Source: a virus
Direction: 5' to 3' (one strand)
DNA: 27,094 nucleotides
Virus record (IMG/VR): IMGVR_UViG_3300006754_003350
Location: 1-27,094 of that record
A model generated the notes under the pieces. The model saw nothing but the letters and a program-made list of their open reading frames with translations, searched no databases and was not told where the DNA came from. Position numbers and translations under genes: made by a program. Positions 2,055 through 26,257 of the stretch are shown piece by piece (position 1 is the first letter of the stretch; every line of letters starts with the position of its first letter).

Positions 2055-2316
2055 AGTAACTATTCCCCTCGTTTACATGCGTCCTACTGGTTAGGTAGTA
2101 CCGCTTTTCTACTTCAATGATGACCGGGTCTGTCCCGATGTTTCTCAATACCTTATAGGCGTCTACGACCGCGTTGTCTACAACTTTATTCAAGTCTGGC
2201 AAAATTACTTGAGTGCCAGCGGGCAGGTAAAAGGGTCCGAGTACAGGGTGAACATAGTTCAAGTCTCGCACTAGCGTTCCGCGCCTCTTCTTGGATTTCC
2301 TTTTACCCCAGCCCAT
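2017..2316 (-). CDS. Small basic protein of unknown function, 99 aa
   Basis: The ATG at 2316 overlaps the stop of the sigma-like gene (TAATG), with AGGGA 7 nt upstream. The N-terminus is very basic (WGKRKSKKRRG), and the rest (LPAGTQVILPDLNKVVDNAVVD) is strand and helix with no known motif. It overlaps the helicase start by 38 nt, so translation is probably coupled across three genes. The basic start suggests RNA or DNA contact, or an RNA polymerase partner. Function is unknown. Confidence 0.75.
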   Translation of the reverse strand: MGWGKRKSKKRRGTLVRDLNYVHPVLGPFYLPAGTQVILPDLNKVVDNAVVDAYKVLRNIGTDPVIIEVEKRYYLTSRTHVNEGNSYYGGNTSKFRRNR

Positions 2317-2804
2317 TACTTGTTCCCTTTCTCAAGTCGCTTGATGTGGCGCTTGATGCGTTGCTGCTTTGATTGTCCGCTTACGCCGAGTGCCTCGCGT
2401 GTCTCGCTGGATGAAAGTCCCAGGGCTTGGGCCATGAGGGCCTCCTGCACGATTAACGGTGCCCGTTCCATCAGAAGGCTCATCTCGGCCTTGGACTCAA
2501 CAACCTCTTGACCCATGTACATCTCGTCAAGGATGTCCCAGTTCTCTACGTATTGAGTGTTCGATAGTGGTTTGATTGCAGCGCGCCTAGTGTACCGGTC
2601 CCGGATCTTCATGGTGCGATACCATGCCCAGGTGCTGAATGAGCCCTTGCTTGGGTCATACTTCGCCCAGTGTGTCAGAACGTCCGCGATCACGTCGCCA
2701 GTGTAGTCTTCTAACTGGTTCTGTGGACCACGCCAATTCTTCGCACATAGCTTCTGCAGTGTGTTGTATTGGTCTATTGTCATCTCATGTTGTTTTGCCG
2801 CCAT
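2316..2804 (-). CDS. Sigma70-family-like factor encoded by the phage
   Basis: A 162-aa protein that reads like a minimal sigma factor. Residues about 14-75 (DYTGDVIADVLTHWAKYDPSKG, then FSTWAWYRTMKIRDRYTRR) fit region 2, with acidic and aromatic residues followed by the arginine-rich helix. Residues about 110-158 (IVQEALMAQALGLSSSETREAL, then GVSGQSKQQRIKRHIKRL) fit the helix-turn-helix of region 4. The linker is short. It could direct host RNA polymerase to phage promoters, perhaps the GGGGTATAAC elements. Direct recognition is not shown. ATG 2804 has GGAG 9 nt upstream. The 74 nt upstream of this gene (2805-2878) show no promoter, so it depends on the FmdB promoter. The next gene overlaps its stop (TAATG). 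Confidence 0.75.
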   Translation of the reverse strand: MAAKQHEMTIDQYNTLQKLCAKNWRGPQNQLEDYTGDVIADVLTHWAKYDPSKGSFSTWAWYRTMKIRDRYTRRAAIKPLSNTQYVENWDILDEMYMGQEVVESKAEMSLLMERAPLIVQEALMAQALGLSSSETREALGVSGQSKQQRIKRHIKRLEKGNK

Positions 2805-2878: not shown

Positions 2879-3064
2879 TTATTTCTGGTATCCATCCTTG
2901 TACCAGCCCTTCCCTTTCAATGAGAAGGATGTCCTGTTTACTTCCAGCCTTTTAGCTGTCCCGCCGCATTCCTTACATGGAACTTCGTCCTTTCTCTGTG
3001 TGTATGCTTGCAGTTTCTCCTGTGAGACCCCGCAACCGCTGCATTTGTATTCGTATATAGGCAT
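2879..3064 (-). CDS. FmdB-like mini zinc-ribbon protein
   Basis: I place the start at ATG 3064, with GGAGG 8 nt upstream, giving 61 aa; an in-frame GTG at 3094 lies within the promoter. The start MPIYEYKCSGCG followed by a second CX2C (Cys8, 11, 30, 33) matches the small FmdB-type zinc-ribbon family, found widely in bacteria and phages with no settled biochemical role. The tail SFSLKGKGWYKDGYQ is the usual FmdB C-terminal motif. It opens a transcript that runs on to the sigma-like gene and the iron-sulfur helicase. A regulatory or nucleic-acid-binding role is guesswork. Confidence 0.88.
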   Translation of the reverse strand: MPIYEYKCSGCGVSQEKLQAYTQRKDEVPCKECGGTAKRLEVNRTSFSLKGKGWYKDGYQK

Positions 3065-3085: not shown

Positions 3086-3114
3086 ATTATACACGCCCCT
3101 AAGGGCTATGTCAA
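3086..3114 (-). promoter_or_regulatory. Perfect consensus promoter for the zinc-ribbon, sigma-like and helicase operon
   Basis: TTGACA (3114-3109), a 17-nt spacer and TATAAT (3091-3086), 21 nt before ATG 3064. The spacer holds GCCC and GGGC around a TTAG centre, an inverted repeat like those in the Sak4 and SSB promoters. Confidence 0.9.
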
Positions 3115-5176: not shown

Positions 5177-5621
5177 CAAGTTTTTTGTTTTTCCAGTATT
5201 TTAATTCTTCCTCAAGCACGGGCTGAAACTTCCCGTCAACATTCCAATACCCCAGCTTGCCGCCGATCCGTACCCACTCCACATCATTCCTGATATAGTA
5301 GGGAACAGTGCTGGCGTCTTCGGCCGCTGATATGGAGTCCTGGATGCGCCTGGATATGTTCTGCTTGCGGAACAGGTTCTCTAGGTTGGTGTAGCCACCA
5401 CGCATGTGAATGGCCCAGTAGTCCTCACTGGTGTAGACGTACTTGAAGTACCCCTTGACCTGCTCGAATGTGCGCTCCTTCAGCACCTTGCTGATTAACT
5501 GGATCGCTTTTTGGCTCGGCTTTTCGCGGCGCGCTTTTTTGATGTAGTAGGCTTCAGCTTTGACCCAGAGGTCGTAGAGCTTTCTTGCTTCTGTATCTTT
5601 TTGGCTTGTTTCGTTCCCCAA
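5169..5621 (-). CDS. Unknown 150-aa protein, possible replication organiser
   Basis: The frame starts at TTG 5621, with AGGAG 7 nt upstream and an in-frame stop before it; no ATG is available until much later. It overlaps the resolvase 3' end by 127 nt in another frame. No known motif is diagnostic. The segment FEQVKGYFKYVYTSEDYW and YTNLENLFRKQNISRRIQD recalls the C-terminal part of phage replication organisers, where a short helix precedes a Leu-Phe turn, but the match is loose. The gene lies directly before the primase-helicase, which fits a loader or organiser role. Confidence in the open frame is good, in the function low. Confidence 0.75.
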   Translation of the reverse strand: MGNETSQKDTEARKLYDLWVKAEAYYIKKARREKPSQKAIQLISKVLKERTFEQVKGYFKYVYTSEDYWAIHMRGGYTNLENLFRKQNISRRIQDSISAAEDASTVPYYIRNDVEWVRIGGKLGYWNVDGKFQPVLEEELKYWKNKKLVD

Positions 5622-6178
5622 AATGCTACTCCTGCGCTATCGGTTATATCGTCTTCGTTTCCTAGATTAGCTAGTATTTGGGGCAAGTCAACAACTTTCT
5701 CAGGGACAAGCAGAAGTGAAAGCTCCTTCGTTCCCAGCTTGTCACCCTCAGTGTGCCTCTTTGTGGACGCCTTGGTGCCAATAACGGACTTGCGCCACAC
5801 GTTGGCCTTGACGAATTCTGGAGTATGGTTGTGTGCGTGAGCCTCAAGCGGGCCGCAGATGCGTCCTGCGTTCCTGGCCACAATGATGCTGGTCTTCTTG
5901 TTGCGACCCACGTATGCGTCTTCTACTGCGAGCAGGTAGCCAGGGCCGCATACTCTATGCGCTTCCTTCGACAAGAAGACACCTATGACGCCCATGGATG
6001 GCATGATCCTCTCGTCGTAAACGAACTTGCCGTTGATGAGGTTACAGTAAGAGACCTTGAACACCTTGACCTTGTTCCGGGTGCACCTCTTCCAGTGATA
6101 CACTGCAAGGATCCCCCCATCAGGCTTCATCATTGTAACTGCTCCAGCGGTAGCCGGATCGCATCCCACGACATTCAT
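5495..6178 (-). CDS. RuvC-like Holliday junction resolvase
   Basis: The start is ATG 6178, with AGGAGG 5 nt upstream, giving 227 aa; a longer in-frame reading runs through the promoter and terminator and is not real. The RNase H-fold acidic residues are in order: GCDPA (Asp7), LAVEDAYVG (Glu86), and NEDDITDSAGVAFWG (Asp177 and Asp180). GDKLG near 145 may bind DNA. A basic tail (about 192-227, rich in Lys, Arg, Ser) follows the core and is encoded in DNA that also codes for the next gene. It resolves branched DNA made by recombination before packaging. Length is slightly above the bacterial RuvC size of about 170. Confidence 0.88.
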   Translation of the reverse strand: MNVVGCDPATAGAVTMMKPDGGILAVYHWKRCTRNKVKVFKVSYCNLINGKFVYDERIMPSMGVIGVFLSKEAHRVCGPGYLLAVEDAYVGRNKKTSIIVARNAGRICGPLEAHAHNHTPEFVKANVWRKSVIGTKASTKRHTEGDKLGTKELSLLLVPEKVVDLPQILANLGNEDDITDSAGVAFWGTKQAKKIQKQESSTTSGSKLKPTTSKKRAAKSRAKKRSS

Positions 6179-6194: not shown

Positions 6195-6204
6195 GTTATA
6201 CCCC
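6195..6204 (-). promoter_or_regulatory. Element CGGGGTATAAC before the resolvase gene
   Basis: The minus strand reads GGGGTATAAC, 16 nt before ATG 6178 and just after the terminator. No -35 consensus is seen. This is the clearest copy of the late-type element in the replication region. Confidence 0.5.
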
Positions 6205-6921: not shown

Positions 6922-6950
6922 GTTATAGCCCCCGTGAAGGGGGCTGTCAA
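6922..6950 (-). promoter_or_regulatory. Consensus promoter for the SSB-like gene with a perfect operator-like repeat
   Basis: TTGACA (6950-6945), a 17-nt spacer and TATAAC (6927-6922). The spacer and its edges hold the perfect repeat AGCCCCC, TTCAC, GGGGGCT, which overlaps both boxes. It is not followed by a T run, so it is more likely a protein-binding site than a terminator. Confidence 0.85.
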
Positions 6951-7776: not shown

Positions 7777-9093
7777 TTATTTCTTCCAGGACTGTACGCC
7801 CTTTCGCTTGTAGCCCTGGAAATTGTCGTGTGCGTCGGACGAGCATAGACCCTTATATGAACAGTACCCTCCTCCGCCCATGCACACCGGCATACGGGGT
7901 GCAGCGATGTCGAGATCCTCCACGCATTCAGCCTCTGCCACCATGCGCCTGCGTCCCGCCAACTGTGCTGCGAACGCGTAGAACTCCGCCTGATTACGCT
8001 TTAACTCAACTTCAGACGTCCGATCCTGCTCTCGGATGAACAGTTCGCGGTCTACGGTATACATGAGCGTCTCGATGTAATCCTCGTACTCCTCAATGGG
8101 TAGGTCGAGTTCTCGAACCTTGTCCTCGTACACGAATGAAAGAATCTTGGCCTTGGCCTTGGACAGCTTGCCGTTCTTTAGAACCTTTGGCTCGTAGAGT
8201 TTGCCGCTGTACGCTAAGTCAATCTGTAGGTCGCCCTTAAAGGTGGGCTCCATGACTGGCTTGACCAGCTTGAGCGTTCCGTTCTCAAGGTTGTACTTGA
8301 CTAAATTGCTGTATGATGGAATCTGTGGGTCGATCTCCATCTTGCTCAAGTAAGAGCGTGGCGATCCGGATGTCTTGTGTTCTCGAATCATGAGTGATCC
8401 GTTCTTCCTGTGCTGCATTAAAGCGTCCATCTTGCCGATGAAATACCAGGGCATGCCAACGGTCGTCTTGATGGTCAGGGACTCGTCACGGGCCTCTCCA
8501 GGACGCGCAAAGCGGTATCTTCCGTCTTCTTCCACAAGGTGTACTGTAGACTTGAATTGATCTCCCTTTACAGGGTGAACTACGGGCATGGCCAGTTGAA
8601 GCTCGACGCCCACTACCTTGTAGTTCTGATCGGGCTCCAGGCCCCATCTGCGCAGATAACCGCTCAAGACAATTCGTAGAGTCGTAAGATCGTCAGCGTA
8701 CTGCTTTGGGTCCAGCTTGCCTTCCCCGACGAACGCTTCCCAGTCCCGAATCGTGATGGCCAGGAGGTTCTTCCCTTCGCTACACAACTCGCAACCCTTG
8801 CCATCACAGTGTAGGCAGTTCCCGTCCATGTACTTCTCAACCGGGAATGTTGTATCCTCGTATGCGAACCACCTGTGTAGATCCTCCATGATAGCGTGAA
8901 AGGCAGAGCCGAACCGTAATGGGCGAGCATCACCGTCAAACTCAAGCCCGTGAGAGTGTGCGTACAGCCATTGGCGTGGACACATCAACTTCTTTACCTC
9001 ACTCTGCGTGAAAGTAACGCAGTACCCTGACTCTGGTAGGCCAGCGATCTCCTGCACGTCGTATCTCGGAATGTGTATTCTTGGTTCTGTCAT
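7777..9093 (-). CDS. PD-(D/E)XK exonuclease with Cas4/AddB-like cysteines
   Basis: The 438-aa protein carries the RecB/Cas4 nuclease signature: FTQSEVKKLMCPRQW (28-42), GSAFHAIMEDLH (62-73, His66), GKMDAL (Asp223), then REHKTSG with Glu238 and Lys240 as the ExK pair, and QIPSYSN (Gln257). Cys38 together with Cys404, Cys411 and Cys417 near the C-terminus fits the cysteine staple that holds an iron-sulfur cluster in Cas4 and AddB. An extra knuckle CX2CDGKGCX2C (93-104) looks like a DnaJ-type zinc knuckle. It probably degrades DNA ends to make ssDNA for the Sak4-like and SSB-like neighbours. ATG 9093 follows AGGAGG at 7 nt. Confidence 0.9.
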   Translation of the reverse strand: MTEPRIHIPRYDVQEIAGLPESGYCVTFTQSEVKKLMCPRQWLYAHSHGLEFDGDARPLRFGSAFHAIMEDLHRWFAYEDTTFPVEKYMDGNCLHCDGKGCELCSEGKNLLAITIRDWEAFVGEGKLDPKQYADDLTTLRIVLSGYLRRWGLEPDQNYKVVGVELQLAMPVVHPVKGDQFKSTVHLVEEDGRYRFARPGEARDESLTIKTTVGMPWYFIGKMDALMQHRKNGSLMIREHKTSGSPRSYLSKMEIDPQIPSYSNLVKYNLENGTLKLVKPVMEPTFKGDLQIDLAYSGKLYEPKVLKNGKLSKAKAKILSFVYEDKVRELDLPIEEYEDYIETLMYTVDRELFIREQDRTSEVELKRNQAEFYAFAAQLAGRRRMVAEAECVEDLDIAAPRMPVCMGGGGYCSYKGLCSSDAHDNFQGYKRKGVQSWKK

Positions 9094-9149: not shown

Positions 9150-9178
9150 ATTATACCACAAAATAAAAAACCCGTCAC
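9150..9178 (-). promoter_or_regulatory. Extended -10 promoter opening the replication block
   Basis: GTGACG (9178-9173) lies 17 nt before a perfect TATAAT (9155-9150), which is preceded by TGG, an extended -10 motif. The -35 box overlaps the right arm of the terminator stem. The exonuclease ATG is 56 nt downstream. This is the first promoter of the replication region. Confidence 0.75.
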
Positions 9179-9211
9179 AGTGGACGGGCTCAGGCGGACA
9201 GAATCTGTCCG
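9161..9211 (-). terminator. Tandem hairpins and intrinsic terminator ending the structural block
   Basis: Just after the hub stop, CGGACAG and CTGTCCG form a perfect 7-bp hairpin with a 3-nt loop (9211-9195). A second stem, CCCGTC and GACGGG with a 6-nt loop (9188-9171), is followed at once by six T residues (9170-9165) and more T-rich DNA. The second is a textbook intrinsic terminator in the minus direction. Confidence 0.9.
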
Positions 9212-11177: not shown

Positions 11178-14100
11178 TTAGACTACCTCCTCGATTGTTA
11201 TCCCAAGGTCTCCAGCAAGTCTCCACTTGCCGTTTGCATCCTGATACCATCCCTCTGATTCAAGGGACAATCCGGACTTGACAACACCGAGTATAGTCAT
11301 TTCAGAAGTGTTCGCCATTAAAAAAGCGAGGGGTTTCTCAGAATACCCACACAGTCCGCGAACCATGGACCTGAATGACTCCCGCTTGCGGTCCACATCT
11401 CCCACGAATCTGCCCGCAACGGATCTCCTTACTGGACCCTTCAGGAATGACCACTCAATTCCAGAGTATGTGCTGATTTCTTCAACCTGGGGGTCGTCGT
11501 TCTCGGAGATGGACCAATCTAACGGCACGTTGCCTGGATTGAATACCGGGCCAGCCACGAGCGTCCCAATCTGGAAATACCCCAGGACTGCATTCTGTGC
11601 AGGAACCCTGACTCTGAAGAACTCGTAAGACTCCACATCCGAATAAACCGATGACATGGAAGACCCGAACACAACAACCCGATCCCCGGCAGAGACTGCA
11701 CCAGGACTTGATACGCTTAGACTGTCGTCAGTAGGGTGACTCAATACCTCGTAAACCTCTCCTGCTGCGGACCCGTCCACCACAACCACCCACCTGCCCT
11801 TGTGCTCACCCTGGGTCATGCCATGGCCGGAGCTAAGTGTGATCCGGTTGCCGGACTTAGCGGACACCGTCATGTCGCCGGTTATGTCTGCCGACAAGTT
11901 GTGTGTTGCTGCTATTGATGAGAAGCCGCTAGATGATGAGTACTCCACGATGGCGGTTCTGAAGTTGGTGTTAAACAGCGCGATTCCGCCGTGAGTTGAA
12001 ACGTGCCCGGATGCCTCGTGAGACATCGCTAGAGACTGCTCTGTCGTGCCAGTCGAGCGCCAAGCTATCCGTGGAGACCTCTCCAGGGCGTTCTCCTTCT
12101 GGAAGTGTGTCCTGGTATTAAGTTCGAAGATGTCGCCCTCGTACGCGCCAGCCCCCCTGAAGTCCACCGATATACCGCTATGGACGTACACAGGGTTTGC
12201 CGACGTTCTCTTGCCGAAGACTTCCATTTCGACGCCATTTAATGACGAAGAGCCCAGCATTGACGGAAGGTTGTCGCCCTGCGCCGTGCCCCACGCTTCT
12301 GCTATGACGCCAAACTCTGAAAGCGCCAGCTTGACCTCTGACCCGAACTCGAATGAGTCCTCTGCATTATTCCCGCCAAGGGGTCCAATAACTCCGTCGA
12401 TGGGAAGAGAACCGTATATTTCCTCACCGTCATCCCCTGCAGCCAGTACGCCGGAAGTCTCCCAGGAGGAATGCTCCCCGACGTCAGATAGGCACCTGTG
12501 CGAGATTCTGCAATTAAGGTCGCCATCAACCGACACTATGATTTGATAGTATTTGCTGTCGTCCACCGTTCCATGTGTGTACGAGTCTACGTATGCTGAA
12601 GTCCCTGTGTCCCACGTCTTGAATACAATTCCGTTGGTAGAATCAACGAACACCCGAAACTTCCATCCGTCAGACGTTACCGCGTTTGTGCCTGCGGCTT
12701 CCGCGTAGTATGACACTGGCGTTTTGCTTGGCTTTACCGTGAAGCCTCCACAGAACCCATTCTTGTATCCGAAGGCATTCCCGAGACCCTCGTGTGAGGT
12801 GAATTTGTATCTTCTTGTGTTTACGGTGCTGGGAAAAATTCTAAGGGATCCATACTGCTGAGCGTCAAGTGTCTCTGCCGCTATGCCAGATGGCGTCCAC
12901 GCCTGACCTGCGCCTGCATTCGTTGAGTAGCTGGTCGGAGCCCCCATCGTTGATGACCAGTAAGCGATGGATAGGGGGTTGAGTGCAGACGAGTCCCTTG
13001 AGTCCAGCCCGTTGGTGATTGGGTGGGTTGTCCACCCGCCAAGAGAGAATTTGGATGCCATTACGCAGTCAGAAGTGCTTGATGGATCTATGTGAGAGAA
13101 GTGGACATCAAGTCTTGCGCCAACTGACAGCATCCTCATGTGAGACATGGAGCAGAACTGCATTCCGGACTGAATCGCCCCACCGTCAGCGAGGGAGGTG
13201 TCTTCGTACTTGTCTCCAATGGTTGTGGCCCTGACGCTGAAGTCTGGGTTGTAGTCGATGAACCCCATCACGGAGGTTTCTTTTGTGGATTTCTTGGAGT
13301 AGAACACTGCCCCAAGGAGAAGACCGTTGTCGTGCCATGCGGCTGCTACGTTCTGTGGCTGCTGGTCTACAGACAGAGTTTCCGCTGCACCCAGACCCAT
13401 TACCGGAACCAGGGCGCTACTACCTACTGACTTGGAAACAGCGAAGAAGTAGTCAGTGCCAGTAATGGTTACCTCGTAGCAATAGGCATAATAGAATGTT
13501 CCGGAGTTGTCGTCCATTCCGACCAAGTCGTGACACGCCTCGTCATTTAACCTTACTGAGGAGGAAACAACCGTTGGACCCGTGTCGACTCCGCCCGGAA
13601 TCGCGCCAGTTCCCTCGATTCTACGGCTCCAGGACCCGCCGTTCGTCACACTTGTGCAGGATATGACGGCCCCCGACTGGTCCAGCCATACGGCCTTGAG
13701 CGTCGATCCGGATGCCGCAAGCCTGAGCGACGTTACTCCAAGAGCGTCCTGACCCGACGTGATGTCAGACGCGATCTTCACAAATGAAGACTCACCCTTG
13801 GTCATCTTGTGTACATTCATCTCGTGAAGTAGCTCTGTTGAGAGGTCATGGTTCTCTCTCCAGTGATGCGAGGTTAGCACGAACAGGTCGCCAGTACCAT
13901 TGGCGGCTATCCCGAACTCAATCACTTGGTCGTACGCATCGTCAACAGCGCCACCCACTGGGAACTCTAGCTGAATCGTGTCCACAAGGGACTCGTCAGA
14001 GTAGACAGCGGACCCCTGTGGCATCTTGTAGACCTTAACCCGCAAGTTCGTTACGTCAGTCGCGTCAGCAACGGCATAGTAAGCCTCTCCGAGCACTCTG

Positions 14101-15725
14101 GAGTAACACGCGTCAACCCTGTCGGCCTCTTTCTCGCCAAAGCAGGAGCGTGATCCCCACGGGAACAGGGTGTGATCGGCGCCAGAGTAGTTGGAGTCTG
14201 AAGAGTTTTTCCAGGAGAACCTGGACTTTCCGACATCGCCAGCAAGTTCGATCCTCGCTGTTGCGTCCAGGGCCGAACTAGGGTTGCCTGACAAGCCAGC
14301 GATAAGCCCGCCTGTGCCTGAAATTAAAGGAGAAGAGCCGAGCCCTAGTCCCTTTTCCGAAGTAGCGGAGTCAACAACTGTTCCCTGGTCCGGGAATATG
14401 AACCTCTGACCAACGGTTCCGTCGTTACTGTCAACAGCGTCCGCCATGGCAAGACCGCCGAAGTCGACGGACTGGATCATCAGGTCGATCTTTGAACCGG
14501 CCATGTGATCGCTTACTCCGTGAAACTTGACGGCCCCATCAGCCTCGTAGTGAAGCCCGATAAGCAGCGATGCGTTGTCGTCAGTTGTGTTTGTGGCCTC
14601 ACCCTGGATGGAGGAGCTTAGAGCCCGCTCGCCGACCCAGATGTTTGACCCGAGAACTCCATCACTATACACTTCCGCGCCATTGGACGGGAGTGCGACG
14701 GCTACCGTGTCTGGGTTTGAGGGGCTGCCTAGTTCCGTATTGGCCAACGCAAGGATGTGCTGCACGTCTATCGACGGATGACTTACTGCGTGGATCGCGG
14801 TCTTGTAGGGTACGCCGTTCGCCCAGGAGCAAATTGCGACAGAGTTCTTCACGACTCCAGGCGATACAACTTCACCGACTGAGTGGATGATTGAAGCGTC
14901 GTGAGGCACGAGCATGTACTCGGTGAACTTAACGTCGTCGGTCGAGTTCTGTGATGAGAAGCTAGGGAAGAACATGGTCTTATTGGGAGTGTAGTCGAAT
15001 CCCAGGGCCAGAATCTGTTGACCTGACGCCGTTACGGATGCGGCGTTTCCACCTGATGCGCTACCCGTGTAGCGGTTGACGTCCCAGTTGGTGCCCCATT
15101 CGATAACACCGTGAACCGAAGTGAACCCGTCAGCCTCGCCCGAGGAAGAGCCGAAAGGGCTGTATCGCTCGATGGTGAGTTCTGTGGCTGAAGACAGGTG
15201 CTCTGCCGCATACATGAGATTAGGGATGGTCGAGCCTGACCCTTGCGTGGTCATGCCCCAACCGGACTGGATTCCGTGCACGGTGCACTTGTTGACGTCT
15301 ACGACACCGGACACAGCATGCGTAGTGGTCACTGCGCCAGAGGCTGATCCTGCAGCGTGAGTCACATTGATCACGTCACGCAGGATGAACCCGTCAGGGC
15401 TATAGGGATTCAGGCACTCGATGATTGTCATGTGCAGCATTGGACGCCTAGCGACAGCGACACCAGACTCCACAACGATTGTTCTTGAACTTCCTGACTT
15501 GGACAGGTCTCCGGTCCCGAAGGGATCGTGCGTAACCTGGAACGCCATGCGGTCAGGGCGCTGAGTGGTCAAGTCCTCGTTAGCAGAGCTAATCATGACC
15601 AGATAGTCCGGTTTCAGATCGTGCGGAAGGACGATCACATGCTGCGTAGAGTATTCATTGTCTGTGGCAAGCTCACCGACTTCATATTCGACGTGCGTCA
15701 CTCTAAAGGTATCCTGAATCGCCAT
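11178..15725 (-). CDS. Very large distal-tail-position protein with LamG-like domain
   Basis: A 1515-aa beta-rich protein placed where distal tail (Dit) proteins lie, between tape measure and hub. Residues 1 to about 440 are paralogous to the N-terminal module of the 575-aa protein. The middle (about 480-950) is a long series of Trp/Tyr-rich strands that could form a beta-propeller, which is a guess. Residues about 985-1140 look like a LamG/concanavalin-type jellyroll (GFCGGFTVKPSK, WKFRVFVDSTNGIVFKTWD), a fold that often binds sugars. The last about 150 residues (YEFFRVRV, LGYFQIGTLVAGPVF, VVKSGLSLESEGWY) resemble the core of small tail-tip proteins. I infer a tail-tip protein that carries a host-binding arm. 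ATG 15725 has GGAGG 9 nt upstream. Confidence 0.7.
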   Translation of the reverse strand: MAIQDTFRVTHVEYEVGELATDNEYSTQHVIVLPHDLKPDYLVMISSANEDLTTQRPDRMAFQVTHDPFGTGDLSKSGSSRTIVVESGVAVARRPMLHMTIIECLNPYSPDGFILRDVINVTHAAGSASGAVTTTHAVSGVVDVNKCTVHGIQSGWGMTTQGSGSTIPNLMYAAEHLSSATELTIERYSPFGSSSGEADGFTSVHGVIEWGTNWDVNRYTGSASGGNAASVTASGQQILALGFDYTPNKTMFFPSFSSQNSTDDVKFTEYMLVPHDASIIHSVGEVVSPGVVKNSVAICSWANGVPYKTAIHAVSHPSIDVQHILALANTELGSPSNPDTVAVALPSNGAEVYSDGVLGSNIWVGERALSSSIQGEATNTTDDNASLLIGLHYEADGAVKFHGVSDHMAGSKIDLMIQSVDFGGLAMADAVDSNDGTVGQRFIFPDQGTVVDSATSEKGLGLGSSPLISGTGGLIAGLSGNPSSALDATARIELAGDVGKSRFSWKNSSDSNYSGADHTLFPWGSRSCFGEKEADRVDACYSRVLGEAYYAVADATDVTNLRVKVYKMPQGSAVYSDESLVDTIQLEFPVGGAVDDAYDQVIEFGIAANGTGDLFVLTSHHWRENHDLSTELLHEMNVHKMTKGESSFVKIASDITSGQDALGVTSLRLAASGSTLKAVWLDQSGAVISCTSVTNGGSWSRRIEGTGAIPGGVDTGPTVVSSSVRLNDEACHDLVGMDDNSGTFYYAYCYEVTITGTDYFFAVSKSVGSSALVPVMGLGAAETLSVDQQPQNVAAAWHDNGLLLGAVFYSKKSTKETSVMGFIDYNPDFSVRATTIGDKYEDTSLADGGAIQSGMQFCSMSHMRMLSVGARLDVHFSHIDPSSTSDCVMASKFSLGGWTTHPITNGLDSRDSSALNPLSIAYWSSTMGAPTSYSTNAGAGQAWTPSGIAAETLDAQQYGSLRIFPSTVNTRRYKFTSHEGLGNAFGYKNGFCGGFTVKPSKTPVSYYAEAAGTNAVTSDGWKFRVFVDSTNGIVFKTWDTGTSAYVDSYTHGTVDDSKYYQIIVSVDGDLNCRISHRCLSDVGEHSSWETSGVLAAGDDGEEIYGSLPIDGVIGPLGGNNAEDSFEFGSEVKLALSEFGVIAEAWGTAQGDNLPSMLGSSSLNGVEMEVFGKRTSANPVYVHSGISVDFRGAGAYEGDIFELNTRTHFQKENALERSPRIAWRSTGTTEQSLAMSHEASGHVSTHGGIALFNTNFRTAIVEYSSSSGFSSIAATHNLSADITGDMTVSAKSGNRITLSSGHGMTQGEHKGRWVVVVDGSAAGEVYEVLSHPTDDSLSVSSPGAVSAGDRVVVFGSSMSSVYSDVESYEFFRVRVPAQNAVLGYFQIGTLVAGPVFNPGNVPLDWSISENDDPQVEEISTYSGIEWSFLKGPVRRSVAGRFVGDVDRKRESFRSMVRGLCGYSEKPLAFLMANTSEMTILGVVKSGLSLESEGWYQDANGKWRLAGDLGITIEEVV

Positions 15726-15754: not shown

Positions 15755-15765
15755 GTTATACCCCT
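15755..15765 (-). promoter_or_regulatory. Late-type element AGGGGTATAAC before the 1515-aa gene
   Basis: The minus strand reads AGGGGTATAAC, 29 nt before ATG 15725 and after the tape measure stop. No -35 consensus is seen at 17 nt. It would serve both the 1515-aa gene and the adjoining hub gene. Confidence 0.6.
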
Positions 15766-15784: not shown

Positions 15785-18700
15785 TTAGCTTCTTCCCCAG
15801 GGATTGTTCCCAGGGGCGCGTATTCCGGCCCTCTTACCAGCCGTTTTTCTAACCATCCTCGACACCCCGGTGGCCCGCCCATCGGCGTTGGCTCCAACGA
15901 CTGCGGAGTCTATCACCGAACCGTCCACAACAGACTGTACAATTACGGTTCCCATTCTTGAACTGTTACTGTAGTTCGAGGAGGGGGAGGTGGGTCCTCC
16001 ACTTGAAGCCTGTCCTGGCCTATTCTCATGCGCAGGAACAACGCGCTCTCCCTTGTGCAGCGTTACGCCCTTCATGTTCCGGGGTACGTACGAAATTCCC
16101 GAATAGTAGTTTCCGTCCTTTCCCTTCTTCTTTCCGCCCTTGGGGTGCTCTGCCTTGAGTGCCCTGAGTGCAGCATCCCTTTCTTCCTTGGTGATTTTTC
16201 CGGCCCTGTACGCGTCTTTGATCTCTCTTTTCTTCTCCCTGTATTCCTTGCCTCTGCCGCCGAATATACCGGCCAGAGCATCAGCAATAGCCTTTGCAAT
16301 GGCCTTCACGAATTCCCAGATAATCTTTGGAAGCTCCTTGATGATCGCCCAGACCAATCGAGGAAGCTCCTTGATGACCGCACCAACGATCTGCGGGATT
16401 CCTCTGGCCAGGGCCATCACAATGGCTGGGAAGTTCTTGATGAACGCATCCACGATTACAGGAATAGCCTCAACCAGCTTGTTGATTAGTATAGGCAACT
16501 GGTGAGCGATCTGTTCCATAATGTATGGGAGCGCCTGGATAACCGCGTCAATGTAGCCCATGATCTGGTCGACCTTGTCCGTCACAACGCTCTTGGCAGC
16601 CTCTTCAGCAGACCCACCCTCTTCCATCAACGTCTGCGTTTCACCAGCCATAGCGAAGATACTTCCAACGCTTGCGAGGTTCATTATGTCCGTTGCGATC
16701 TTTCCGATCTCGTCTATGACCTCAGTGCCGAAGTTGACAGCTTGACCAAACGTCTGCATGAGTTCGCCAGACATCTTGCCAACTGATTTCAGCGGACCCA
16801 TCACAAGAGACGAGATTCCCTTGGCGAGTCCAGCGATAGCTTTTCCGGCTAGGTCAACGGCACCCTTCAGGATGGTTGTTCCAAGGCCGAACTCTTTGAC
16901 GTCTGCTGCGAACTTGGCTAACTGAGGGAACTGGCTGGCCATGGCGTTCCCAATGGACTTACCCAAATTCAGGCCGCCGCCCTCCTTGAGTTCTTTGCGA
17001 TTCAGACCACGCAGTTCCTTCTTAGCGGACTTGACTCCAGCCTTGTCTCCACTCTCCTTGGCCATTTTCAGCTTAAGCTCAAGTTGCTCCCTCAACTCCT
17101 TGGTTGTTTTTTTCTCGCTTTCCACTACTTCCAGCGCAGCAGCCCTGCGCCTCTCCAGTAGCTTTAGGATGCCCTCCAGAAGCTCTGTCTCGCTTCCATA
17201 CCGCTCGACCAGCGCTGCTGTCTCATCGTCGAATCTTGCGTTTATGATAGCCTTGCGCTTTTCCTTGCCCTCTTCGAGAAGGTCGTTCTCCATGTCTCGA
17301 TGCGATCTGGCAGCGCTCAAGCGCAATTCCCTCAACTTCTCAATGTCGGCAGCAGCCTTTTTAGCGGCAACTTCATCCCTTACGTCACGGTCGTCGCTAA
17401 TTTTCTTGTTTGCTAACCCCCATGCCTCCAGAAGAGCCATTTTCTCCTCTGCGGTTTCAAGCTCCTTCATTCTTGCGGCGAATGTAAGGTTGCTTATCTT
17501 GGTCTCAAGCTCGAACCTTTCCTGGCTGTTCTTAGTGGAATCTTTCCTGGCCTGAAGAATCTCAAGCTCCAACTCCTTCACCTTGCTGACCCTCTCGACA
17601 GCGACACCACCACCGCCACCACCCGAATCGCCGCCAGCGCCCTCTGAGTCCTTAACAGAGTCCTCTGCGTCTCTCGCGGCCTCAGCCTTCAACTTTTCAA
17701 ATTCCGAATGCGCACTAGCGCCAGACTGGTCTCTTCCTGCTATTCCCGCGCCCTGCAACTGAGCACTGTTCGCCTTGACGCCATCAAGCCCCACGGCATC
17801 CCCGGCAGCGCCGATGACGTTGTTGATCTCGTTAAGTGCTGCAGCGGAATCTCCTCCACCGAACACGAACTTAAACAAGGAGGTTCCGGCGATCTTCTTC
17901 CCGACTTTGGATACCTCTTGCGCGACTTCCTTGATCTTCCGTATAGTTCCGCCGAGCCACTTGTTGATCAACTTCGAGAAGAACGCCGCTATGAGTGACA
18001 TAACTCCGCCAACCTTGCCGCTGCCCCCGAAACGCTTGGCTATAAGTCCGGACAAATACGTGATAATCTTACCTATAGATTGTAGTGCCTTGCTCGCCAG
18101 TGCCAAGTTCCAATGTATGAACTTGGTGAACAGGTTTGCCACTACAGCAGACAATATCTTTATTAGACCGTTGATGAAGATTAAACTCCGCTGTATCGGG
18201 CCAGTTACTCTACTCCACGTTGTCCACACGTCTCCAATGAGCGCTATCGCCCCAGCAATAGCCAGACCGATCCCGATCAGGGCGTCAGCCCATATGTCTG
18301 CGGCGTCCTTAGCGTCAACCGCAGGGCCCGTCCATGCCGCAAACGCGGTCCTGAATGCTGCCTCAAGTACGCCGAACCGATCCATAAAGCTCTCGTAGAA
18401 CTCGTCCAGGAATGTCCTTACAAAGTTTATGGCTCCACCAAGGCCAGAATTAGAGTCTTTGCCGACGATAAGCTCAAACAGACGAATCATTAGAGCGTTG
18501 AACTTTGAACCAATCTTGAGCATTGAGCCCGTTACAGAGTTCATCATGTCGCTCTGTATTTTGGCAGCCTTGCCTTGTGAGTCAGCGAACTCTTCAGCCC
18601 TCGTTTTCAATTCCGGGAATTTCTTTGCAAGACTGACTAGGTTGCCCTCGTACTGTGCCAGACCAAGTGCGGACGGAGCGAACCGTGCCCCGAATACATC

Positions 18701-19555
18701 AATGTAGTCTCCTGTTTCCGCGCCAGCCTTCTTCATTCTAAGGACTGCCTCTTCCATGTTCTCAACGCCCTTTCCGGGTGTTATGTCTTCAAAGGTCAGG
18801 CCAAGATCTTTAAGTGCGGCTTCTGCCTTGGGCGTTTCCTTAGCTAGGGCACTCAGGCCCATTCTCATGCCTGTTCCCGCGATTGATCCCTCAATACCAA
18901 TGTCGGCAAGTTTTGATAACGTGGTAAATACCTGCTCAACAGACTGGCCAAACTGGTTAGATATGGGGCCAGCGTACACCATCGCTGCAGATAACGATTC
19001 AAAGTTCAACATGGATTTCGTCAGCGCTACTGCCATCAGGTCAGCCACTTCAGACGCCTGTGTGGCCTCCATATTGAACTGCCGAAGCATCTTGGACACG
19101 AACTCCGCAGACTGGCCCAGTCCAGCCCCTCCGACTGTAGCAACAGCAAGAACCGCTTCCGTTGCAGCAGCGATCTCGTGAGCTTTGAATCCAGCCTTTG
19201 ACATGGCCTCAAAGGCATCCGTAACCTGTGACGCTGTGTATTCCGTGTCGGACGCTAGGTCCAGCGCCAAGGAAGACAGCATCTTCATGTCTTCGCCGGT
19301 TCCGCCGAGGAGGGCCTTTACTCTGACCATCTTGTGCTCGAATTCGGATCCGGCCTTTGCTATGGCCCCGAAGCCGACGGCTATGGCGCCGAGGCCCAGG
19401 CTCGCAGTCCCTGCCGCCGCGCCAAACCCCGCGATCACTCGCTTCATGTTGGCCATTTTCTTGGTGGCCGTATCAGCCTTCCTGTCGAACTGAGCCGTGT
19501 CCATCATCATCCGGACAACTAAGCCACTCGCTTTTCCAGCTTTACCAAATGCCAT
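15785..19555 (-). CDS. Tape measure protein
   Basis: A 1256-aa protein with the TP901-type tape-measure domain in its first third: GSEFEHKMVRVKALLGGTGEDM, LASDTEYTASQVTDAFEAM, SKAGFKAHEIAAATEAVL and GIEGSIAGTGMRMGLSAL. A hydrophobic stretch near 420-445 (IGIGLAIAGAIALIG) may insert into the host membrane during DNA ejection. A Gly/Ser linker near 640-650 leads to long coiled coil (about 655-850), then seven 11-residue repeats (1009-1085) and a basic tail. It sets tail length and forms the core around which the tube assembles; at roughly 1.5 angstrom per residue the tail would be near 190 nm. ATG 19555 follows GGAG. No lysozyme or peptidase motif was seen. Confidence 0.95.
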   Translation of the reverse strand: MAFGKAGKASGLVVRMMMDTAQFDRKADTATKKMANMKRVIAGFGAAAGTASLGLGAIAVGFGAIAKAGSEFEHKMVRVKALLGGTGEDMKMLSSLALDLASDTEYTASQVTDAFEAMSKAGFKAHEIAAATEAVLAVATVGGAGLGQSAEFVSKMLRQFNMEATQASEVADLMAVALTKSMLNFESLSAAMVYAGPISNQFGQSVEQVFTTLSKLADIGIEGSIAGTGMRMGLSALAKETPKAEAALKDLGLTFEDITPGKGVENMEEAVLRMKKAGAETGDYIDVFGARFAPSALGLAQYEGNLVSLAKKFPELKTRAEEFADSQGKAAKIQSDMMNSVTGSMLKIGSKFNALMIRLFELIVGKDSNSGLGGAINFVRTFLDEFYESFMDRFGVLEAAFRTAFAAWTGPAVDAKDAADIWADALIGIGLAIAGAIALIGDVWTTWSRVTGPIQRSLIFINGLIKILSAVVANLFTKFIHWNLALASKALQSIGKIITYLSGLIAKRFGGSGKVGGVMSLIAAFFSKLINKWLGGTIRKIKEVAQEVSKVGKKIAGTSLFKFVFGGGDSAAALNEINNVIGAAGDAVGLDGVKANSAQLQGAGIAGRDQSGASAHSEFEKLKAEAARDAEDSVKDSEGAGGDSGGGGGGVAVERVSKVKELELEILQARKDSTKNSQERFELETKISNLTFAARMKELETAEEKMALLEAWGLANKKISDDRDVRDEVAAKKAAADIEKLRELRLSAARSHRDMENDLLEEGKEKRKAIINARFDDETAALVERYGSETELLEGILKLLERRRAAALEVVESEKKTTKELREQLELKLKMAKESGDKAGVKSAKKELRGLNRKELKEGGGLNLGKSIGNAMASQFPQLAKFAADVKEFGLGTTILKGAVDLAGKAIAGLAKGISSLVMGPLKSVGKMSGELMQTFGQAVNFGTEVIDEIGKIATDIMNLASVGSIFAMAGETQTLMEEGGSAEEAAKSVVTDKVDQIMGYIDAVIQALPYIMEQIAHQLPILINKLVEAIPVIVDAFIKNFPAIVMALARGIPQIVGAVIKELPRLVWAIIKELPKIIWEFVKAIAKAIADALAGIFGGRGKEYREKKREIKDAYRAGKITKEERDAALRALKAEHPKGGKKKGKDGNYYSGISYVPRNMKGVTLHKGERVVPAHENRPGQASSGGPTSPSSNYSNSSRMGTVIVQSVVDGSVIDSAVVGANADGRATGVSRMVRKTAGKRAGIRAPGNNPWGRS
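16301..16531 (-). repeat. Seven tandem 11-residue repeats in the tape measure
   Basis: Residues 1009-1085 consist of seven consecutive 11-residue units, each beginning Leu, Ile or Phe then Pro, with hydrophobic residues at fixed places: LPYIMEQIAHQ, LPILINKLVEA, IPVIVDAFIKN, FPAIVMALARG, IPQIVGAVIKE, LPRLVWAIIKE and LPKIIWEFVKA. Eleven-residue periodicity is known in other tape measures and fits the helical repeat of the tail interior. Confidence 0.9.
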
Positions 19556-19579: not shown

Positions 19580-19590
19580 GTTATACCCCT
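19580..19590 (-). promoter_or_regulatory. Late-type element AGGGGTATAAC before the tape measure gene
   Basis: The minus strand reads AGGGGTATAAC, 24 nt before ATG 19555. No -35 consensus is seen at 17 nt. Confidence 0.6.
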
Positions 19591-19594
19591 AACG

Positions 19595-19936
19595 CTACAT
19601 AACGGGTATACCCATTGACGCCAATCCAAGCAGCTTGTTCTTCTCTGCCGTGACCCTGTCCTCTTTAGAGGTAGCCTTCTTCTTGGCTGCCGACTTTGCA
19701 GGGCCGTCAGATGTGGCTGGCTTATATTCTGCGCCGAATGCTCCCATGAGGGGCTCTATCAGCGAGTTAAGGAATTCGACCTTGACCTTCACTATGCACA
19801 TCGCGGACAGTTGGATCTGATCAAACGTCATATCCAACACGTCATCCAGCGACATACCGGAGCCCATAAGGACCCCGATAGCAGAGTGTATGGCTTCCAG
19901 GCTACTCGCCCCCGACGAGGGGGAGTCACTGCCTAC
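19595..19936 (-). CDS. C-terminal half of the frameshifted tail chaperone (lambda T-like extension)
   Basis: This -1 frame continues from the G gene to a stop at 19595 and would add about 113 residues, giving a fused chaperone of about 259 aa, a common size for GT proteins. It includes VLDMTFDQIQLSAMCIVKVKVEFLNSL and a Lys-rich tail (SAAKKKATSKEDRVTAEKNK). An internal ATG at 19867 could start a free 90-aa product, but it has only a GGGG-type site upstream and no promoter element, so I prefer the fusion. In known systems the T part contacts the tape measure protein. The gene directly upstream of the tape measure supports this. Confidence 0.75.
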   Translation of the reverse strand, partial: VGSDSPSSGASSLEAIHSAIGVLMGSGMSLDDVLDMTFDQIQLSAMCIVKVKVEFLNSLIEPLMGAFGAEYKPATSDGPAKSAAKKKATSKEDRVTAEKNKLLGLASMGIPVM

Positions 19937-19942
19937 TTGCCC
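19904..19942 (-). promoter_or_regulatory. Programmed -1 frameshift signal between the chaperone frames
   Basis: At the end of the G frame the minus strand reads ATG GGC AAG TAG. The heptamer GGGCAAG (19942-19936) is a weak slip site, since only some codon positions re-pair after a -1 shift. Nine nt further, ACTC plus four C pair with GGGG and GAGT around a short loop (19926-19904), with one bulge, making a strong stem at the usual distance for a stimulatory structure. There is no T run after it, so it is not a terminator. The -1 frame has no stop from upstream of the slip site to 19595. Confidence 0.65.
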
Positions 19943-20373
19943 ATTAGATTCCCGGCCTTCGTCAGCGTCTTGGCGAAGGCTACCGCTAAAGGGCCGAATG
20001 CCTTGATGAGTTCTTCGATGTCGAAGTTGTCAGAGGGTGAGCCTTCAAAGTTCTTGGCGAGTGCTGGATAGCACGCGTCGAATGTTTCGTCGATCAAGTC
20101 TAGCAGTCGGTCATCACTTAGTACGCCCATGGCTGCACGAAGCATTGATTCCATGCTAGTGAACGCCTCTTCGTCAACATCGATTTCTTGCAGTAAGTCC
20201 GCCGCCTTCTCGACCATGCGTAGCGCTTTGATTTGTCGCCGTGCTGACAACTTGCTTGGCAACTTGTACTTGTTTCCTTCCAGGTCGTGGATCGCCAGGT
20301 CTGACGGCACTAGGTCTTCAAGTAACTGGACGAAGTCCACTGCTTCTGATTCCTCAACGGTATTCTCTTCCAT
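19933..20373 (-). CDS. Tail assembly chaperone, short form (lambda G-like)
   Basis: The start is ATG 20373, with GGAG 6 nt upstream, giving 146 aa; a longer frame from a TTG at 20421 runs through the promoter-like element and is not credible. The protein is acidic and helical (VQLLEDLVPSDLAIHDLEGN, then a basic KLPSKLSARRQIKALRMVEKA stretch and ELIKAFGPLAVAFAKTLTKAG). No family motif is diagnostic, but it lies between major tail and tape measure, and the -1 frame is open across its stop codon into the next frame. That is the signature of the G/GT pair, which binds the tape measure and recruits tail-tube subunits. It should be made in excess over the fused form. Confidence 0.85.
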   Translation of the reverse strand: MEENTVEESEAVDFVQLLEDLVPSDLAIHDLEGNKYKLPSKLSARRQIKALRMVEKAADLLQEIDVDEEAFTSMESMLRAAMGVLSDDRLLDLIDETFDACYPALAKNFEGSPSDNFDIEELIKAFGPLAVAFAKTLTKAGNLMGK

Positions 20374-20401: not shown

Positions 20402-20412
20402 GTTATACCCTT
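20402..20412 (-). promoter_or_regulatory. Late-type element AAGGGTATAAC before the chaperone genes
   Basis: The minus strand reads AAGGGTATAAC just after the major-tail terminator and 28 nt before ATG 20373. It would restart transcription for the chaperones. The -35 region falls inside the terminator stem and has no consensus. Confidence 0.55.
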
Positions 20413-20419
20413 GGGAAAC

Positions 20420-20450
20420 AAAAAGGGGCACCCGAAGGCACCCCTTTAAA
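20420..20450 (-). terminator. Intrinsic terminator after the major tail gene
   Basis: On the minus strand AAAGGGGTGCC, a TTCG tetraloop and GGTGCCCCTTT form an 11-bp stem that includes two G-U wobbles, followed by a T run. The loop is the stable C(TTCG)G type. The wobble pairs become mismatches on the plus strand, so it works best in the minus direction. Confidence 0.88.
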
Positions 20451-21045: not shown

Positions 21046-21252
21046 TTATTGCTTGACCAGAGTCCATAGACCCATAGTCTTGTCGCAAGAATTACAAGTT
21101 AAGTTAATCTTCTCTTTCCTGTAACCGTCTGGAGTGTCTGCGCTGCGAGTGGATAATCCCTCTCCAGCATAGTCCAGAGCGCAACCGCACTCACAGCGTA
21201 CGGCCATGTTGAGATTGCGCAGGTTTAAAGGTCGAGAATCAAAAGTGTTCAT
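21046..21252 (-). CDS. Small zinc-ribbon-like protein, 68 aa
   Basis: ATG 21252 starts 1 nt after the previous stop, with AGGAA 9 nt before it. A second Met at residue 16 has no ribosome binding site. The protein has Cys at 20, 22, 24, 53 and 56 (CECGC, then CNSC), which reads as a small zinc-binding ribbon or knuckle. No enzymatic motif is seen. The gene lies between the terminator-like and major tail genes and shares their transcript, so a role in tail assembly is possible. Function is unknown. Confidence 0.75.
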   Translation of the reverse strand: MNTFDSRPLNLRNLNMAVRCECGCALDYAGEGLSTRSADTPDGYRKEKINLTCNSCDKTMGLWTLVKQ

Positions 21253-21253
21253 A

Positions 21254-22981
21254 TTACAAAGTTCCTACATAGGTGAACAGTCCACGGATAAAATACCCGT
21301 CTACCTGTTGGTTATACCCGTCATGGGGCCGTTCTGTTTCACGTATCAGCCCTTTAGGTGAAAATCCATCCCGGTGTATCCTGGTATGTTGCAGTTTCGT
21401 CCTTACTAATTCGTACATTTGGGCAGCGTCAGAATAACCGTTCCTGGAGTACACGTAAACTGCCACATTAACGGTTTGAACTCCACCATGCCATCTGGCG
21501 TTACCGGAGATGGCCTCGACTATAATCCGAGGCATCTTGACTGATGATCCGTCGTCTCCGGGCTTCACTTGCTCGTGAGTTCCGACAATGCGTCCGTCTA
21601 CGTGGTCGACCAATTCGTCAATCTCGAATAGCTCTCTAACGATCAGTGACTTCAGCCCAGGGATCCCCTGCTTTCCGGCCTCGTCAAGAGTGGGCATTGA
21701 TTCCAGCACATCTTGCTTGGCGATGTTTGATAGGTCCGCCACCTGCACGTACAGGTGTGAGAGGTCGTCCGTAGTAGCAGCCGAGATTGACTTGTACTTG
21801 AACGACTCGCCTTCCAGCATGAAGTCGGCAATCATTGGCCCGTCGTTGTTGTTGTCTGTAGATCCAGAGTCTCCGGTGTAGTGGACAAGCGGGATTCTTG
21901 CGCCAGACGTCTTGTGGAAATTCAGGTCTATCCCTGCTGACGCCGAGTCGGCTTGTTCTGACAGGGCCGAGACAATAGGCGCTGGCACTGCGAGGGTTTG
22001 CTCAACCCTTGGCATGCGTATGGTTCCGCGCTGAGGGGTAAAGTGCTGCACGCTCATGGCTGGATTGCTTGCCGTGTATGCCGAGATCTCGAATGAACCT
22101 GCGGCATTCACCGCGTTTGTGGCTGCAATATTTGTCTGGACGCCCTGCATGGTTGACGCTAGACCATTTCCTGGCCGCACTATGGGTATTTGACTGTGCA
22201 GTCTTCCGTTGCTTGCTTCGCTGTACCAGGACAAGTGCATCATTGTGTGATCGAAGTCTAGCGGCTTTGGATTGCCATCCCAGTCGATGATGGTGTGCTG
22301 CGTGTAGCTTAGTGGGTTCTCGAAGTCAGGAACAACATTAGTGTGGGTGAAATCCTGCCTGTAAACTTCCCACTCAGACCCCCACTCGATAACCTGAAGC
22401 GTTGTGGTCATGGCTGCATTCAGCACGAAGCCGAAGTTGGAGAACTTTTTAACCTCAAGGTCGGTGTTGCTTGTAAGGATCTCACGAGTAATGTTAGAAC
22501 CCAGGGCGGAACCCCCTCCAGCACCTGCTCCCCACATTCCTCCGACTACCCAGCACTGCTTGAAGTCAGAGACCCCGGACACGGTCTCGGAGTACGTGAC
22601 GATCCCTGTGGATGTTGTTGCTGGATGATTGATGACCTTGGTGTCGCAAAGCCTGAAGCCATTAGGGTCCGACCCATCCAGGCACTCCGTGATTGTCATG
22701 TGCACGCGTGGCGCTCTGGATGTGTTGGACTGGTTCTCGATAACTAGAAAGTTGCCGCCAGACGATCCGAGATCACCAGAACCATATGGGTCTGCAATAA
22801 CCCGGAAGCTCGCCCGGCTTGGCTGATAGCCTTCGTTATTATCGGGATCAGGCGCACAATGGAATACCACAAAGTAATTGCTAGACAGCGTTTGATCAAG
22901 CGGGACAACATGAAACCTCCTCAACTCGTCAACAACGTGATGCAGCTTAATTTGTGTTACTCTAAATAGGTTTCTGCTCAT
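21254..22981 (-). CDS. Tail terminator-like protein with a large N-terminal module shared with the distal tail protein
   Basis: This 575-aa protein has two parts. Residues 1 to about 420 match the start of the 1515-aa tail protein, with shared blocks FRVT, DPYGSGDL versus DPFGTGDL, HMTITECL versus HMTIIECL, VSGV, and VIEWGSEWEV versus VIEWGTNWDV. Residues about 425-575 (LKSLIVRELFEIDELVD, then NVAVYVYSRNGYSDAAQMYELVRTKL and a final strand GYFIRGLFTYVGTL) fit a small tail terminator fold of the lambda gpU or DUF3168 kind, normally a stand-alone protein of about 130-150 aa. It lies between the gp10-like and major tail genes, exactly the terminator position. ATG 22981 has GGAG about 7 nt upstream. 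The domain fusion is seen in sequence; the terminator role is inferred from pattern and position. Confidence 0.7.
   Translation of the reverse strand: MSRNLFRVTQIKLHHVVDELRRFHVVPLDQTLSSNYFVVFHCAPDPDNNEGYQPSRASFRVIADPYGSGDLGSSGGNFLVIENQSNTSRAPRVHMTITECLDGSDPNGFRLCDTKVINHPATTSTGIVTYSETVSGVSDFKQCWVVGGMWGAGAGGGSALGSNITREILTSNTDLEVKKFSNFGFVLNAAMTTTLQVIEWGSEWEVYRQDFTHTNVVPDFENPLSYTQHTIIDWDGNPKPLDFDHTMMHLSWYSEASNGRLHSQIPIVRPGNGLASTMQGVQTNIAATNAVNAAGSFEISAYTASNPAMSVQHFTPQRGTIRMPRVEQTLAVPAPIVSALSEQADSASAGIDLNFHKTSGARIPLVHYTGDSGSTDNNNDGPMIADFMLEGESFKYKSISAATTDDLSHLYVQVADLSNIAKQDVLESMPTLDEAGKQGIPGLKSLIVRELFEIDELVDHVDGRIVGTHEQVKPGDDGSSVKMPRIIVEAISGNARWHGGVQTVNVAVYVYSRNGYSDAAQMYELVRTKLQHTRIHRDGFSPKGLIRETERPHDGYNQQVDGYFIRGLFTYVGTL
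21311..21320 (-). promoter_or_regulatory. Possible late-type element CGGGTATAAC inside the 575-aa gene
   Basis: The minus strand reads GGGTATAAC within the last codons of the 575-aa gene, 58 nt before the 68-aa gene. It could serve the 68-aa and major tail genes, which have no other element, but it also encodes Gly-Tyr-Asn and may be chance. Confidence 0.3.
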
Positions 22982-23006: not shown

Positions 23007-23017
23007 GTTATACCCCT
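23007..23017 (-). promoter_or_regulatory. Late-type element AGGGGTATAAC before the 575-aa gene
   Basis: The minus strand reads AGGGGTATAAC, 25 nt before the ATG at 22981. The hexamer at 17-nt spacing is TGGTCA, a 4 of 6 match to TTGACA, so a weak -35 is possible. Confidence 0.6.
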
Positions 23018-23712: not shown

Positions 23713-23723
23713 GTTATATCCCT
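23713..23723 (-). promoter_or_regulatory. Late-type element AGGGATATAAC before the gp10-like gene
   Basis: The minus strand reads AGGGATATAAC, a one-base variant of the recurring element. It lies 26 nt before the ATG at 23686 and overlaps the glycosyltransferase stop codon. No matching -35 was found at 16-18 nt. Confidence 0.55.
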
Positions 23724-25552: not shown

Positions 25553-25581
25553 GTTATACCCCTACAGAGGAAGGTTGTCAA
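25553..25581 (-). promoter_or_regulatory. Consensus promoter for the glycosyltransferase
   Basis: TTGACA (25581-25576), a 17-nt spacer and TATAAC (25558-25553), with AGGG extending the GGGG motif directly before the -10 box. The ATG of the glycosyltransferase is 25 nt downstream. This is the only structural-region element that has both a perfect -35 and the GGGGTATAAC core. The flanks TAGGG and CCCTA around the -10 box also form an inverted repeat. Confidence 0.85.
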
Positions 25582-26246: not shown

Positions 26247-26257
26247 GTTATACCCCT
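26247..26257 (-). promoter_or_regulatory. Late-type element AGGGGTATAAC before the 212-aa gene
   Basis: The minus strand reads AGGGGTATAAC, 24 nt before the preferred ATG. No good -35 is seen at 17 nt; TTAAGC at 18 nt is the nearest candidate and overlaps the previous stop. Between the element and the start codon, CCACTT and AAGTGG form a perfect 6-bp hairpin that touches the GGAG ribosome binding site. Confidence 0.6.

Follow-up and report, generated by a model that had tools for sequence, protein, structure and literature searches.

An ECF-like phage sigma factor and a repeated late promoter-like element in the genome of an uncultured phage

The virus of IMG/VR record IMGVR_UViG_3300006754_003350 (the 27,094-nucleotide stretch of that record, here called the window) encodes a 162-aa protein whose sequence supports its assignment as a diverged sigma-70-family factor, and carries the repeated sequence GGGGTATAAC, which is supported as a real promoter-like signal, found genome-wide and mostly late. 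Given a sigma factor and a repeated element ahead of most particle-building genes, the protein probably switches the host polymerase to the late genes. In the reading preferred here, to which a probability of roughly three in four is assigned, an ECF-like sigma factor of the phage is made early from a host sigma-70 promoter, binds the host core enzyme and redirects it to GGGGTATAAC, a promoter consisting of a single block of about 10 bp; that this sigma factor is the one recognizing GGGGTATAAC is our best inference. The features of the window are listed in Table 1.

Table 1. Sigma factor gene, promoters, terminators and GGGGTATAAC-type elements of the window
Feature	Position	Strand	Remarks
Sigma-70-family (ECF-like) sigma factor P0001	2316..2804	-	Sigma70_r2, TIGR02937, phrog_1740, homologues, region-2 fold
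FmdB-like zinc-ribbon protein, 61 aa from ATG	2879..3064	-	Pfam Zn_ribbon_8, E 2e-12; first gene past the perfect promoter
Host sigma-70 promoter, TTGACA-17-TATAAT	3086..3114	-	12/12 match; ahead of FmdB-like and sigma genes
GGGGTATAAC, exact	6195..6204	-	16 nt upstream of gene 5495-6178
GGGCTATAAC, 1 mismatch	6922..6931	-	-10 part of sigma-70-like TTGACA-17-TATAAC (6950-6922); ahead of SSB gene
Sigma-70-like promoter, TG before -10 box	9150..9178	-	10/12 match; ahead of replication block (exonuclease 7777-9093)
Terminator-like hairpin	9168..9191	-	between tail-gene block and replication block
GGGGTATAAC, exact	15755..15764	-	29 nt upstream of gene 11178-15725
GGGGTATAAC, exact	19580..19589	-	24 nt upstream of tape-measure gene 15785-19555 (Pfam PhageMin_Tail)
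AGGGTATAAC, 1 mismatch	20402..20411	-	just after terminator hairpin; upstream of gene 19933-20373; identical arrangement in G004
Intrinsic terminator-like hairpin	20422..20447	-	11-pair stem, then T run; directly upstream of the element at 20402
CGGGTATAAC, 1 mismatch, doubtful	21311..21320	-	within coding sequence; 58 nt upstream of gene 21046-21252
GGGGTATAAC, exact	23007..23016	-	25 nt upstream of gene 21254-22981; conserved in G004
GGGATATAAC, 1 mismatch	23713..23722	-	26 nt upstream of gene 23021-23686; conserved in G004
GGGGTATAAC, exact	25553..25562	-	25 nt upstream of gene 23722-25527
GGGGTATAAC, exact	26247..26256	-	upstream of gene 25584-26222

The open reading frame of the sigma factor has an ATG start codon, an AGGAG ribosome-binding site and a length of 162 aa, which identifies it as a real gene. 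The initial annotation had called the product sigma-like, and the profile searches bear this out. The match to Pfam PF04542 (Sigma70_r2) was significant, with an E-value of 2e-6 and a score of 27.9 bits (cut-off 24), and phrog_1740 of the PHROG collection ('RNA polymerase sigma factor') was matched with 4.7e-7. Regarding TIGR02937 (sigma70-ECF), the match over residues 13-159 showed an E-value of 4.8e-10 and a score of 39.3 bits, which is below the curated cut-off of 42.9; the protein is ECF-like in sequence and fold and formally remains under the cut-off of this ECF family. The key stretch of the protein is YDPSKGSFSTWAWYRTMKIRDRYTRR. A search of solved structures with the profile of the sigma family yielded ECF SigE at 5e-6, and the same structures searched with the single sequence gave chance matches only. 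The region-2-like and region-4-like patterns previously noted in the protein fared differently: region 2 is clear from both profile and fold, whereas the C-terminal 69 aa produced weak matches to HTH_20 (E 0.007) and to a sigma-70 subfamily (0.008) and the protein produced no match to a Pfam region-4 profile, so that its C-terminal helix-turn-helix may be region 4, an assignment that is weakly supported.

Structure prediction, which the initial annotation had proposed as a check, returned a sigma region-2 fold. In the AlphaFold model (three sequences) region 2 comprises the helices 10-23, 28-44 and 56-77, with a pLDDT of about 90 for residues 10-77; the linker is unordered, and the C-terminus is helical with a pLDDT of 55-65. 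Nearly all of the Foldseek matches listed were sigma factors in holoenzymes or initiation complexes, with ECF sigmas on top. Alignment with VIA-align gave Z 9.5 and an rmsd of 2.4 over 78 residues for SigH of M. tuberculosis, and Z 7.7 and an rmsd of 2.3 over 74 residues for T4 gp55 (7d7c_F), in both cases inside residues 1-84 of the model; Z values of about 7.7-9.5 are by themselves not decisive for a small helical domain, and here the profile matches agree with them. Since only region 2 is clearly conserved and the linker and C-terminus are poorly predicted, the protein could also be a sigma derivative that is no longer an initiation factor (e.g., an inhibitor occupying the polymerase clamp). 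This is improbable, because four diverged phages have retained region 2, which serves both to bind the core enzyme and to recognize the -10 box, TIGR02937 covers most of the protein length in two of them, and a dedicated promoter set exists.

The sigma gene adjoins genes for a primase-helicase, SSB, Sak4 and an exonuclease, in agreement with its earlier placement in a replication block. The consensus promoter also described earlier was found again as a perfect sigma-70 promoter upstream of the FmdB-like and sigma genes, for which 0.01 occurrences are expected by chance in 20 kb. The FmdB-like gene, situated between this promoter and the sigma gene, is also present in the related phage G022 (see below). 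The exonuclease, primase and sigma genes are without a good GGGGTATAAC element, and sigma-70-type promoters stand ahead of the replication and sigma blocks. The SSB promoter at 6922-6950 (-), which overlaps GGGCTATAAC, is perhaps a dual early/late promoter.

Within the window GGGGTATAAC occurs six times exactly and ten times with up to one mismatch, always on the minus (gene) strand, whereas 100 shuffles of the window contained on average 0.75 GGGGTATAAC-like sites (maximum 6). The two elements originally reported, at 19580 and 25553, were thus confirmed but are an under-count. The same virus is also represented by the 59,283-bp contig G001, which is 99.98% identical over the whole window, and there 23 elements lie on the gene strand vs two on the other strand. 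Among all 9-mers counted de novo upstream of genes, GGGGTATAA ranked first (20 found, 0.78 expected, p 1e-24), and of 50 upstream regions submitted to motif-finding about 25 contained.agGGGTATAAc. The information is essentially confined to the 10-bp block. A text search of the literature for GGGGTATAA gave no phage work among the matches listed.

The genome uses the element some 20 times, mainly ahead of structural and lysis genes: those for portal, protease, tape measure, several tail proteins and a lysis protein of the peptidoglycan-binding type, in addition to gene 5495-6178, whose product is RuvC-like by eye and had no profile match. The name 'late element' given to it earlier fits most of these genes and is only approximate, because of the roughly 20 uses along the genome and because the corresponding elements of the relatives G002 and G011 also precede replication genes. 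Within the protease gene (L035; G001 position ~56,815, minus strand), GGGGTACAAC is located 32 nt upstream of an internal ATG with which an acidic C-terminal part begins, and may be the promoter of a scaffold gene nested there. The gene at 23722-25527 (-), among the tail genes and behind a late element, encodes a 601-aa protein with a glycosyltransferase family 2 domain. The 1515-aa (11178-15725, minus strand) and 575-aa (21254-22981, minus strand) proteins share a related stretch, with 31% identity between the former and the G004 version of the latter, which suggests duplicated virion modules.

The element is nearly always followed at a short distance by a ribosome-binding site and start codon, a position that would also suit a signal acting in the RNA leader, on translation or processing, instead of a promoter. 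Such a role is very improbable, since the element lies at varying distances from the start codon (mostly 16-32 nt, range 16-45 nt) and is distinct from the ribosome-binding site, several copies directly follow transcription terminators, the element has the form of a -10-type box, and many genes in the same operons have no element of their own.

Regarding the relatives, a search of 50,697 phage records with the sigma factor and the exonuclease, intended to find cultured relatives, gave no match, and primase, portal and terminase matched proteins of cultured phages only at about 21-28% identity. Among bacterial genomes, one genome scanned with the primase profile contained partial matches only (25-27%). 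Diverged homologues of the sigma factor were found in three further uncultured phages which share replication and tail genes with this virus, G002 (49.6 kb, GC 65%), G011 (64.0 kb, GC 69%) and G022 (85.8 kb, homologue at E 1.9e-25). Overall identity to the sigma factor of the window is about 19-23%, and each of the three homologues matches sigma-70 region 2 independently (PF04542: 30.6 bits for that of G022, just under the cut-off for that of G002).

The closest comparison for the element is G004, a 39-kb contig with a capsid protein 78% identical to that of G001, in which the top upstream 9-mers are of the GGGATA type; this contig is a fragment that stops short of the replication block, which leaves its sigma factor out of view. 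Compared at 10 genes that are orthologous in G001 and G004, the element shows 84% identity, vs 31% for the 40 bp upstream and 34% for the 24 bp downstream. At position 4 of the element nearly every G001 site has G, and most G004 sites have A (GGGATATAAC); a concerted change from G to A at many separate sites points to one trans-acting reader. In G002, GGGGTA ranked first in enrichment among all hexamers upstream of start codons (9 vs 0.67, p 1e-8), and the sites read GGGGTAGATC. The GGGGTA core is weaker in G011 (p 2e-3), and in G022 the sites seen were a few copies of GCTATAAC only. When applied to G002, G011 and G022, general motif-finding gave motifs at noise level; GGGGTA in G002 emerged only from the targeted ranking of hexamers. 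No element signal was seen in the relatives without a detected sigma factor (G005-G009, G023 and G024, mostly fragments); regarding G023 and G024, with primases of 38-41% identity, neither sigma factor nor element occurs within their fragments.

A third alternative accepts the sigma factor as real and has GGGGTATAAC read by the host sigma factor as an extended -10 promoter, or with the help of another phage regulator, while the phage sigma serves other promoters. TATAAC does resemble a sigma-70 -10 box, one site lies within a near-consensus sigma-70 promoter (6922-6950), and G011 and G022 carry the sigma factor with a weak or altered element. Reading by the host sigma is nevertheless opposed by the missing -35 box, by the last -10 base, for which sigma-70 has a strong preference for T and 16 of the 18 sites have C, by a GGGG block conserved as much as TATAAC, and by the right half of the G002 element, TAGATC, which is unlike a sigma-70 -10 box. 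As to another regulator, the FmdB-like protein is the only other regulator-like neighbour, and it was rejected as a common regulator because it is missing from the element-bearing G002 and G011. Altogether this alternative appears unlikely, though less so than the two discussed above. Regarding the -35 region, columns -45 to -1 of 18 sites showed a weak GT at -20/-19 in G001 which was not repeated in G004. The bipartite promoter with a -35 box that is a trait of ECF sigmas was accordingly not found at the elements, an observation which applies to this sigma factor only if the element is its promoter.

Under the preferred reading, in which the phage sigma reads GGGGTATAAC, the host polymerase would transcribe the early block including the sigma gene from the perfect sigma-70 promoter. 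The sigma factor would then use region 2 to bind the core RNA polymerase of the host, which it would redirect to the genes behind GGGGTATAAC, many of them structural or lysis genes and some of other kinds, and the early block would thereby precede the GGGGTATAAC genes in time. By analogy with phiEco32, the expected transcription start is about 6-8 bp past the element, with leaders of about 10-25 nt. No phage RNA polymerase gene was noticed when the translated ORFs of the contig were read by eye. Sigma factor and element are linked here because of their co-occurrence, the concerted change of the sites, the expected order of expression, the missing -35 box, the consistent C in place of the T favoured by sigma-70, the terminators before elements and the precedent of phiEco32. 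Several points count against the link: no sigma factor is in view for the element-bearing G004; the relatives without a detected sigma factor are mostly fragments; the sigma-bearing G022 and G011 have a weak or different element; the putative region 4 is expected to read a -35 box, as region 4 normally does, yet none is consistent across the sites; and in G002 and G011 the element stands ahead of replication genes.

A wider picture is offered tentatively, at clearly less than even odds: these phages may form an uncultured lineage with fast-diverging sigmas of its own, accompanied by sets of promoters across the genome that shift together (GGGGTATAAC, GGGATATAAC, GGGGTAGATC and perhaps GCTATAAC). 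In this picture the GGGG block may serve as a specificity element, located upstream of the -10 box, whose reading needs no -35 box even though a region-4-like domain has been retained. The pair proposed here would add a phage sigma factor and promoter with an unusual, compact code, no close relative in culture having been found for the phages concerned. Their relatives would represent a natural series of sigmas with shifted promoter sets, which makes the joint change of specificity in a sigma factor and many promoters directly testable, and the pair may also offer a small orthogonal promoter system for laboratory use.

Among known systems, T4 gp55 recognizes the -10-only late promoter TATAAATA, and late transcription of T4 needs the co-activator gp33 and the sliding clamp gp45. 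The likeness to gp55 proposed in the initial annotation holds for the region-2 fold; otherwise the protein is nearest to ECF sigmas in sequence and fold, its C-terminus is helix-turn-helix-like, and the element contains a GGGG block. T4 gp55 is therefore an analogue by region 2 only, because the protein is closest to ECF-type sigmas and its C-terminus may be region 4. With the ECF (group 4) sigmas SigH, RpoE and SigK it shares the two-domain size, region 2 by Pfam and fold, and a TIGR02937 match over part of the full length; it differs in its score under the TIGR02937 cut-off, in the weakly supported region 4 and in an element without a -35 box. Phage 7-11 gp47 is likewise a phage sigma factor driving late genes with the host core polymerase (PMC8948821), and its own promoters are bipartite, GTAAtg-(16)-aCTA, in contrast to the single block found here. 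The circuit was initially thought to match no described phage, but phiEco32 provides a match: gp36 reads the single-block middle/late promoter tAATGTAtA, with starts 6-8 bp downstream (PMC8948821). Both phages have a small sigma factor of the ECF superfamily. In phiEco32 the early genes are served by host sigma-70, as they probably are here, and late genes stand behind a promoter that is one block of about 9-10 bp, with TATA in it and no -35 box (PMC8948821); promoter-like elements of this single-block type upstream of late genes are what was found in the present phage. The differences are that gp36 is said to lack region 4, that hhalign of the new sigma family with gp36 gave a probability of 0.3%, which is not significant (both match TIGR02937), and that phiEco32 has a helper, gp79, the likeness being drawn from sigma factor and promoter only. 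With tAATGTAtA there and GGGGTATAAC here, phiEco32 gp36 and its single-block promoter are the nearest known system, built on the same plan with a different DNA code.
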